A stretch of DNA of 51,030 nt from an uncultured Chitinophagaceae bacterium. GTDB lineage: Bacteria > Bacteroidota > Bacteroidia > Chitinophagales > Chitinophagaceae. The notes under the pieces were generated by a model. It was given only the letters and a program-made list of their open reading frames with translations. It made no database searches and was not told the DNA's origin. A program made the translations under genes and the position numbers. Shown here piece after piece: positions 11,983 through 42,480 of the stretch. How positions within the stretch are numbered: position 1 is the stretch's first letter; the number at the start of each line of letters is the position of its first letter. The stretch spans positions 1-51,030 of the forward strand of contig CAITVK010000056.1 in assembly GCA_903895845.1 (NCBI GenBank), read 5' to 3'.

Positions 11983-12139
11983 GGTTATTTTAAATTTTGT
12001 ATTTTGTTTTAAATTCAGGACACTGCTAGTTTAAAATAAAATACAACCAGAATTTATAGCCCTCGTTCTCAAACCGATATTGGTATTCTTAAAGTTAATT
12101 TACGTTGTTTTAAACACAAAAAACGCCATCTTTCTTTTA

Positions 12140-12386
12140 ATTCAGACCATCTGAACGATCATTTAGACAGTCAAAACGATCGTTCAGACAGTCAAAATAC
12201 TCATTTAGACAGTCTAAATAAATTTCAGACCTTCAAAATGATCATTTAGACAGTCTAAATGGTTGCTCAGACAGTCAAAATACTCATTTAGACAGTCTAA
12301 ATAAATTCTAGACCTTCAAAATTATCATTTAGACAGTCTAAATGATTGCTCAGACAGTCAAAATGCTCATTTTGACTGTCTGAAAC
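12140..12386. repeat. Array 1: twelve 21-bp palindromic modules in three 83-bp super-units
   Basis: The GAC of each module falls at 12145, 12166, 12187, 12208, 12228, 12249, 12270, 12291, 12311, 12332, 12353 and 12374. The steps are therefore 21, 21, 21, 20, repeated. Every fourth module (12145, 12228, 12311) is a variant carrying GACC and an adjacent TC in place of GACAGTC. The best modules are perfect dyads, TTTAGAC-A-GTCTAAA. The array lies between the DUF4139 gene and the histidine kinase gene. In the rest of this intergenic region (11983-12139 and 12387-12644) I see only a weak inverted repeat at 12391-12425. Confidence 0.93.
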
Positions 12387-12644
12387 TTTATTTAATCTTC
12401 TTATCACTAAAAAAGATAGATTAAAAAAAGAAAATCATGTTTCATATCTCATTTTGGAAACTTAAAACTTCAAATGCGTTTTGTAAATTAACCAATCCAT
12501 TTTCTTTGATAATTGACCATATTTTTCCGATTTGACAATAGGTGATTTCCTTTTTCTTTTACTTTTACAATAAGAGTTTTTATTTGAAGTCTCTCAGAAA
12601 AGTACGCCCCACAATTTGATTAATCTAGATAAAACTATTGAAAA

Positions 12645-24831: not shown

Positions 24832-24971
24832 AAAATGTAAAGAAGCAACACTTACCACAGAAGATATGCCTTGTTTGTAAACGTCCTTTTACGTGGCGGA
24901 AAAAGTGGGAGAAGGTGTGGGACGAAGTGAAATATTGCAGTGAGAAATGTAGGCGGAGTCATAAGTTATGA
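24828..24971 (+). CDS. DUF2256 mini-protein (47 residues), zinc-binding
   Basis: A short gene starting inside the photolyase stop (ATGA overlap). The 47-residue product begins [20 protein letters not shown] and continues [20 protein letters not shown], then CRRSHKL. The four cysteines, C14-x2-C17 and C37-x3-C41, around the invariant PFTWRKKW...VWDEVKYCS block identify DUF2256. It probably binds one zinc. The partner of this family is the adjacent photolyase in many genomes, so a role in photolyase or cryptochrome function is plausible but unproven. Confidence 0.92.
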
Positions 24972-24986
24972 GTTATAAGTTAAATG

Positions 24987-25747: not shown

Positions 25748-25928
25748 TTTAGGCAACAAGCAAAATACTTGTTGTAGCCCCACAGAGGTAATCTTATTAA
25801 TCCATACCGCAACACACTATTTTCAAATAAGGGTATTTATTTTTATTTCAGGTGTAAAATAATTTTTAGAGGATACAATTTTGGAGAATTTAAGTACAGA
25901 AATAAGGAGATTTATAGGAAATAAATTT

Positions 25929-26154
25929 ATTTACACCGTGGAAAAAATCATTTACACGGTGTAAATGACCATTTCGACAGTGTAAATGAACGCTGCGACA
26001 GTGTAAATGACCATTTCGACGGTCTAAAAAAGATTTACACGGTGTAAACGACCATTTACACCGTGTAAATGATCATTTCGACAGTGTAAATGGTCGTTGC
26101 GAAGGGATAAAATTCATTTACACCGTGTAAATGAGTATTTACACGGTGTAAATG
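25929..26154. repeat. Array 2: eleven 21-bp palindromic modules with 83-bp super-period
   Basis: Equivalent core positions fall at 25935, 25956, 25977, 25998, 26019, 26039, 26060, 26081, 26102, 26122 and 26143. Steps are 21 except for 20 at 26019-26039 and 26102-26122, exactly 83 apart. The best modules are perfect dyads such as TTTACAC-G-GTGTAAA; others are TTTCGACAGTGTAAA. Read on the minus strand, the order and the degenerate 20-bp modules match array 1. The array lies between the divergent genes starting at 25747 and 26301. The rest of this gap holds nothing else I can identify. Confidence 0.93.
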
Positions 26155-26300
26155 AAAAGAAAGATGAGGTATTTTTTATTTAAACTAATCTTATTCTTCT
26201 TTACAATAGCTAATAAATAAAGTAGCGTGTGTTTATTTGAGGGATGTTATATTTACAAAGTGGAGAAGATGGTGGTGATGAAATGAAAACATAGGCAAAA

Positions 26301-42204: not shown

Positions 42205-42212
42205 CACAAACA

Positions 42213-42480
42213 AGCTTACTTATGCCTATCTTATTTTTTCGAATGCCATCAAAAACGTTATTTATGCCTATCTTAATTTTATGATAGGCGGAAACAGGCT
42301 TACTTATGCCTATCTTATTTTTCGGAATACCATCCACAACGTTATTTATGCCTATCTTAATTTTATGATAGGCGGAAACAGGCTTACTTGTGCCTATCTT
42401 ATTTTTCGGAATGCCATCCACAACGTTATTTATGCCTATCTAAATTTTATCATAGGCACAAACAAGAATTTTTATGCTTA
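42213..42480. repeat. Array 3: three 84-bp units (4 x 21 bp) plus a partial unit
   Basis: Units start at 42213, 42297, 42381 and (partial) 42465. GCCTATC recurs every 42 bases (42224, 42266, 42308 and so on), so each unit is two 42-bp halves, or four 21-bp modules. Within each unit, GCCTATC pairs with GATAGGC 17 bases later (for example 42266-42272 with 42283-42289), making a 7-bp stem with a 10-base loop. Because 84 is a multiple of 3, long open frames appear on both strands (plus 42137-42619, minus 42143-42421) that simply translate the repeat. I treat the array as non-coding. Confidence 0.9.

Follow-up and report, generated by a model that had tools for sequence, protein, structure and literature searches.

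Intergenic tandem arrays with a repeat of about two helical turns in a lake-dwelling Chitinophagaceae bacterium and its congeners

Introduction

Two arrays of short, largely palindromic units lie about 13.5 kb apart in a 51,030-bp stretch of DNA (the window; contig C56 of genome G000, which comprises 138 contigs and 4.01 Mb) from an uncultured Chitinophagaceae bacterium. In both, the units are 21 bp long, except for a 20-bp "degenerate" unit that recurs once every 83 bp (Table 1). The locus raises the question of how the two arrays are related, whether the symmetry of their units is kept by selection on pairing, and what kind of element they represent. An initial annotation had placed array 2 at 25929-26154 and the spacing at about 13.6 kb; the array is confirmed, with its start three bases further out, at 25926, and the spacing is slightly smaller.

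Table 1. Arrays and associated features (window coordinates unless a piece such as L009 is named)
Feature	Coordinates	Strand	Structure	Neighbouring genes
Array 1 (A1)	12140..12388	+	three 83-bp blocks (20+21+21+21 bp each), 12 units in all; palindromic, type TTTAGAC-A-GTCTAAA	DUF4139/DUF4140 protein; GAF histidine kinase
Array 1, degenerate unit, block 1	12140..12159	+	20 bp
Array 1, degenerate unit, block 2	12223..12242	+	20 bp
Array 1, degenerate unit, block 3	12306..12325	+	20 bp
Array 1, left flank	12043..12139	+	alignable with the A3 left flank (contig C83) in one stretch with the array
Array 2 (A2)	25926..26154	-	11 units, 229 bp; palindromic TTTACAC-N-GTGTAAA units and non-palindromic units with right arm GTCG....	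protein without Pfam match; protein with SEC-C motif only
Array 2, degenerate unit u3	26093..26112	-	20 bp
Array 2, degenerate unit u7	26010..26029	-	20 bp
Stretch around array 2	25837..26215		duplicated on contig C83 (L009 5422-5804), 91% identical
A3 (contig C83)				Mrr endonuclease; arginase-family genes
A6 (G007)				PIN-domain protein; ECF sigma factor
Third array in the window	42208..42464		84-bp block x 3.1, inner 42-bp period, inner dyads; overlaps a 160-aa ORF call	TPR-protein gene (array upstream)
Heptamer-type runs	24956..24982; L009 7090-7151, 7534-7561 and 2901-2993

Results

Array 2 is a diverged, inverted copy of array 1

On its minus strand, array 2 is 68% identical to array 1 in a gapless alignment of 208 bp, and good registers recur 83 bp apart (offsets -42, 41 and 124), as predicted by a common block of 20+21+21+21 bp. 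In direct orientation the identity is 66%, nearly as good because the units are near-palindromic, so that the arrays alone barely fix their relative orientation. It is fixed by a flank alignment through a further copy, A3, found on contig C83 in a BLAST search of the genome against itself. A3 is array 2 reversed (92% over 373 bp), and it aligns in equal direction with array 1 plus about 95 bp of left flank (window 12043-12302, plus strand, E = 6.6e-6); the match of A3 to array 1 by the array alone, in the opposite direction, has the better E-value (4.5e-8). The degenerate modules of the two arrays match at 67.5% of positions against 26.7% for letter shuffles (0 of 5000 shuffles reach the observed value), and degenerate and ordinary modules match at 59%. 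The suggestion that array 2 is a diverged, inverted copy of array 1, with full and degenerate modules in the same order, is thus borne out, and the two arrays are copies of one non-coding element.

A3 is the one further copy that BLAST detects in this genome. Arrays A2 and A3 have about 380 bp in common, flanks included, at 91-92% identity, and similarity drops sharply outside. Three more copies occur in two relatives: A4 and A5 in G012, at the locus of the C83 copy and at the array 2 locus (its gene side), respectively, and A6 in G007. All five arrays from A2 to A6 comprise 229 bp and 11 units and align without indel across the three genomes. An exact-pattern search of genome contigs, from which the source genome may have been left out, gave three stretches, in the MAGs G007 and G012, and a search of viral contigs with one exact pattern of the array type gave none. 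With covariance model R1, run on 294 genomes of the family under strict filters with 15 candidates scored per genome, the source genome is the sole match among those listed, G007 and G012 being absent there. In 13 genomes of the genus, with E values up to 0.5 accepted, the search matches five, including three strong matches, and the model of the 83-bp block also reached arrays of other sequence in these genomes.

In the A1-A6 family, symmetry of the unit arms is not repaired pair by pair

The typical dyads of the two arrays, TTTACAC-N-GTGTAAA and TTTAGAC-N-GTCTAAA, had been read as a base pair exchanged on both arms with symmetry kept. The difference is real: the swap is present in 10 of 10 counted units of array 1. 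Symmetry, however, is not kept throughout, since in the five arrays of the array 2 type the position is C-G in just 22 of 45 full units, and 16 of 45 have C facing C. This is the only clear G-C to C-G swap, and it splits array 1 from the other five arrays as one block.

For the arms as a whole, A1 to A6 were cut into 55 full-length units with 440 arm cells (among them the first unit of array 1, taken at a length of 21 bp). Complementary cells number 328, compared with 334.6 ± 4.1 when right arms are shuffled within arrays (1924 of 2000 shuffles reach 328) and a mean of 324.0 when they are shuffled over all arrays (505 of 2000). Pairwise comparison of homologous units in A2 to A6 gives 535 unchanged cells, 174 one-arm changes, 11 other double changes and no compensatory double change, and the compensatory covariation proposed for the arms is therefore not supported, real pairing being no better than shuffled. 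Of 72 columns per arm, 10 vary in the left arm of these units and 31 of 72 in the right arm. In the A1-A6 family, one arm is conserved and the other variable, and symmetry is common but not repaired pair by pair.

The covariation score that the initial annotation had proposed as a check, computed on an alignment of the 83-bp block with 12 distinct rows, is 0.126 versus 0.100 and is reached by 5 of 500 shuffles; yet six of the seven double-changed cells are the single swap of array 1 counted in three rows. In the consensus fold of A2 to A6, double changes occur in 5 of 69 pairs and the covariation term is unfavourable (+3.92). Across 26 other arrays of the class described below there are 26 compensatory, 9 other double and 219 single changes; permutation gives an expectation of 16.5 ± 2.9 compensatory changes, with a maximum of 26 in 1000. 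This excess across the class is weak and may reflect a minor effect; among the arrays that contribute to it, several have composite units of 42 bp.

The two arrays belong to a large class with a common period

Tandem repeats of at least 80 bp were collected with TRF from the window and twenty 20-kb pieces of the same genome (451,030 bp in total), a sample in which contigs C28, C50 and C53 were picked for model matches and C109 for a weak BLAST match, so that the density may be somewhat high. Of the 40 arrays found, 35 repeat at 21 bp or close to a multiple of it, and their unit sequences are mostly different; two of the 35 are short and resemble heptamer runs (L113 10139-10220 and L123 10302-10390). 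The remaining five have periods of 147, 147, 153 and 60, in long ORFs, and 31. Extrapolated to the whole genome, the sample corresponds to about 310 arrays. By the same method, six congeners yielded 21 such arrays in 400,000 bp, with 1 to 6 each. In 55 other genomes of the family, 2 arrays were found in 1.35 Mb: none in 400,000 bp of G016, none in 347,712 bp from 14 genomes, and two of similar look (L241 14361-14470 and L247 9338-9569) in 604,731 bp from 40 genomes. The class is concentrated in the genus but not confined to it. The congener G005 also has two arrays of period 40 (L205 4791-5076 and L206 15300-15587), which may represent two turns at 20 bp or a separate class.

Among 72 arrays collected in this analysis, mostly chosen for a period near 21, 53 have an effective unit of 21.0 bp, 7 of 20.5, 10 of 20.67-20.83 and 2 of 21.5; the median array length is 193.5 bp. 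The unit stays within 20.5-21.5 bp in all 72, including arrays with periods of 41, 82, 83 and 86 bp, which points to helical turns rather than codons. Under lenient clustering, in which links below about 65% identity may reflect periodicity alone, the 72 arrays fall into eight multi-member groups, the largest with 19 members, and 26 singletons; array families occur at several loci and in several species. In these lake bacteria, such blocks of roughly 200 bases make up a large class. Most are intergenic, and most have a repeated word of their own, whose length is almost always close to 21 bases. A literature search, with subscription papers mostly outside its reach, found no description of these arrays. 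They are not CRISPR arrays, their units standing head-to-tail at 20-21 bp without spacers.

Dyad symmetry exceeds that of column shuffles (P < 0.05) in 25 of 47 tested rows, corresponding to 24 of 44 distinct arrays since three rows repeat an array (12 rows not cut into 21-bp rows were set aside); in the sample of the source genome it does so in 15 of 28. Variability with period 3 was significant in none of 55 arrays (P < 0.05). Open frames average 2.1 per array versus 1.8 in column shuffles, which is not significant; 13 of the 55 arrays have none, and no frame is open in arrays 1 and 2. A protein-coding heptad repeat was rejected on these grounds. The variability of 50 arrays clusters at periods 21 and 10.5 (P < 0.05 in 22% of them at each), which fits a helical face and also clustered changes. 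A conserved 10-column block per unit is significant in 6 of 50 arrays, too few for a half-conserved, half-variable unit to be the general rule. A/T phasing at 10.5 bp is slightly raised (P < 0.05 in 15% of 55 arrays), too weakly to be the main signal.

Gene context

Of the 35 arrays in the source genome, 27 lie in gaps between called ORFs (two of these reach 15 and 38 bp into an ORF, and two are at piece edges) and eight overlap called ORFs of 91-160 aa. The 25 arrays with a called ORF on both sides are in 15 tandem, 7 divergent and 3 convergent gaps. No common function is evident in the small set of neighbours in Table 1. The Mrr restriction endonuclease gene adjoining A3 is at L009 4354-5253, and a short ORF by A5 (L029 5670-5810) resembles the start of that gene by eye.

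Another class of repeats in the same genome consists of dispersed heptamer-type runs (AAGTTATGAGTTAT) between genes. In some arrays, of which four were noticed by eye, the terminal unit or units are inverted relative to the rest and form a terminal hairpin (window 12349-12388, L124 3376-3421, L126 2092-2141 and L107 9640-9690). The two outer ends of array 2 are inverted repeats of each other over 43 bp, at 91%; palindromic units give such ends anyway.

Arrays are better conserved than their flanks in two pairs, and some positions have different arrays in different species

In the orthologous pair A3/A4, identity per 60-bp step is 0.77-0.85 within the array, without gaps, and 0.53-0.75 with gaps in the intergenic flanks; the genes are mostly at 0.85-0.97. 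In the pair A2/A5 the array core is at 0.78-0.85, the right flank at 0.35-0.40 and the near left flank at 0.63-0.65, and the neighbouring gene is mostly at 0.65-0.72, its start at 0.78-0.88. The arrays are better conserved than nearby intergenic DNA in both pairs.

Species also differ in the array found at a given position. At the gap that holds L108 1148-1318 on contig C28 of the source genome, G007 has a different array (L177 483-737), G012 and G010 have related arrays of a third type by the same right-hand gene with an extra gene between, and the gap in G011, G009 and G008 is about 100 bp long, without any array. At the position of L108 10408-10550, another array type is common to G007 and G012, and G009 and G011 have none; the type that the source genome has there is found elsewhere in G007 (L195). 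At the array 2 position, G007 has repeats of another type next to the same left-hand gene (TRF period 20, 3.2 and 2.7 copies). The neighbouring genes are still present where species have no array. Array 1 allows no such comparison: the DUF4139 genes of G012 and G002 adjoin a different gene, and there is no array up to about 0.7 kb away. Each of the five homologues has 11 units and array 1 has 12; in one family at another position the number ranges from 5.6 to 8.4.

The 800-bp region of G007 and G012 (L183/L184) that contains the array common to them at the L108 10408-10550 position is mostly 95-100% identical, which suggests recent transfer; at another position the arrays of the same two genomes differ.

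Discussion

That a two-turn unit recurs between genes, some ten times in a row, suggests that the DNA double helix is at work here, and not codons or a specific RNA. Our preferred reading, held tentatively and at somewhat less than even odds, is that the arrays are helically phased platforms for a DNA-binding protein, whose sequence families are moved or replaced. The conserved property would be the repeat of about two helical turns (20.5-21.5 bp, usually 21) over roughly 10 units. The arrays would act as double-stranded DNA, each unit turning the same face to a putative DNA-binding protein, perhaps architectural or oligomerising, so that several to a dozen molecules could be aligned on one side of the helix between genes. 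Unit sequence would drift, or be exchanged as families spread to intergenic positions or are replaced there, and the spacing of two helix turns may thus matter more than the letters. The arrays with their period and distribution are observed; the protein, its binding to them, a helical cause of the period and the way in which families spread are inferred. In favour of this reading are the near-21 period of 35 of the 40 arrays in the source genome, the alignment of A2 to A6 without indel, the conservation of arrays over flanks in two pairs, the lack of period-3 variability, the reoccupation of positions by other arrays, the dyads in more than half of the distinct arrays tested, and variability at periods 21 and 10.5; an iteron-like platform would have just such a two-turn unit kept free of indels. 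Against it, near-identical units are expected from slippage without selection, arrays are absent at some positions whose neighbouring genes remain, and low-frequency variability could come from multi-base conversion tracts. The 10-column block is found in few arrays and A/T phasing is barely raised. A binder blind to sequence would also leave the likeness of units within an array unexplained, and the higher conservation of arrays may partly be due to concerted evolution.

Neutral turnover by biased mutation is nearly as likely, at roughly one chance in three. The arrays, tandem repeats of one unit as defined by TRF, would then be selfish or neutral minisatellites, made and renewed in any intergenic sequence by a bias of replication or repair in this clade (slippage plus template switching at quasi-palindromes) and without function. 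That most arrays have their own unit, many of them singletons even under lenient clustering, that one position holds different arrays in different species or none, and that heptamer runs are common too would all follow; so would the inverted units at the ends of array 1, L124 3376-3421 and L126 2092-2141, as from template switching. Less easily accommodated are the exact conservation of 11 units and 229 bp in five homologues across three genomes, the conservation of arrays over adjacent intergenic DNA in two pairs, and the families at several loci in several species, and single-strand slippage gives no obvious reason for the two-turn multiples of 41, 82 and 83 bp. We consider it rather improbable that the array is a non-autonomous mobile element, a set of sites to which a transposase or integrase would bind in order to copy the array, with short flanks, into intergenic DNA. 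The common stretch of A2 and A3 with its sharp ends, a 288-bp copy pair of C28 and C11 at 87%, the families at several loci and the inverted repeat at the outer ends of array 2 agree with such copying, but many pairs (C28/C111, for example) have the array alone in common and not the flanks, and many unrelated unit sequences would require as many enzymes. Common ends or target duplications were not identified, in comparisons short of a systematic search, and the flanks at positions without an array are too diverged to place ends.

That the arrays are transcribed into a structured RNA, shaped as a long rod or as a string of hairpins and under selection for pairing, is very unlikely. Predicted folds are very stable on both strands (z of -12.8 and -13.4 for array 2, -10.9 for array 1 and -5.6 for A5), and the excess of dyads and the weak excess of paired changes over the class go in the same direction; any tandem array of palindromes folds well, however, the arms of A1 to A6 show no excess of compensatory change, and the covariation term of A2 to A6 is unfavourable. 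Among 103,331 bases of six sources, Rfam at gathering score matched only a tRNA (2623-2694) and no array, and the below-threshold matches of array 2 are to unrelated families. Bidirectional terminators or attenuators, which hairpin-forming units between genes might suggest, have the lowest probability of all, close to negligible, as the orientation of neighbours does not fit: only 3 of 25 arrays are in convergent gaps.

Like bacterial intergenic minisatellites or VNTRs, the arrays are short tandem direct repeats between genes with their own unit per locus. VNTR loci vary in unit number, whereas the arrays here occur at high density, with 35 in 451 kb, nearly all share one period, and the homologues in three genomes have equal unit numbers without indels. 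In plasmid origins, iterons of about 20-22 bp follow each other in tandem, so that a protein binds them along one face of the helix. The arrays resemble them in their tandem two-turn units, with binding a matter of conjecture here, and differ in that no replication gene was identified beside the arrays looked at, hundreds are extrapolated per genome, and many units are unrelated. REP/BIME elements are dispersed intergenic palindromes in families, as the arrays are, but have one sequence per genome and do not form 21-bp tandem arrays of about 10 units. Heptamer direct repeats (TAACTGA) between genes in Beggiatoaceae, Cyanobacteria and some Bacteroidetes offer another case of many intergenic tandem repeats in one genome, with 169 sets in one genome and a proposed role as binding sites, according to the accessible part of the source (PMC4679880). 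The same part describes one heptamer throughout, mostly just upstream of start codons, whereas the arrays here have many 21-bp unit sequences and no gene-orientation preference was seen. DNA features phased with the helix are also described for prokaryotic A-tract periodicity and nucleoid proteins; in the accessible part of that source (PMC3940949) this is a statistical signal of short A/T runs, not of tandem arrays, and A/T phasing is weak here.

A further extension of the platform reading, which we regard as unlikely though less so than a mobile element, is a bacterial equivalent of satellite chromatin. Each genome would then have some hundreds of platforms between genes, identified through the two-turn period and not by sequence, whose unit sequences would diverge and be swapped as period, rough length and position persist. 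Most arrays are unlike each other, so that sequence-similarity searches miss the class. If the period is under selection, the arrays would amount to a genome-wide system of DNA architecture in a bacterium in which spacing is conserved rather than sequence, and the positions that hold different arrays in different species would permit a direct test of spacing against sequence. If the arrays are neutral, the clade would have a mutational process of fixed 21-bp length of its own, which would itself need explanation.
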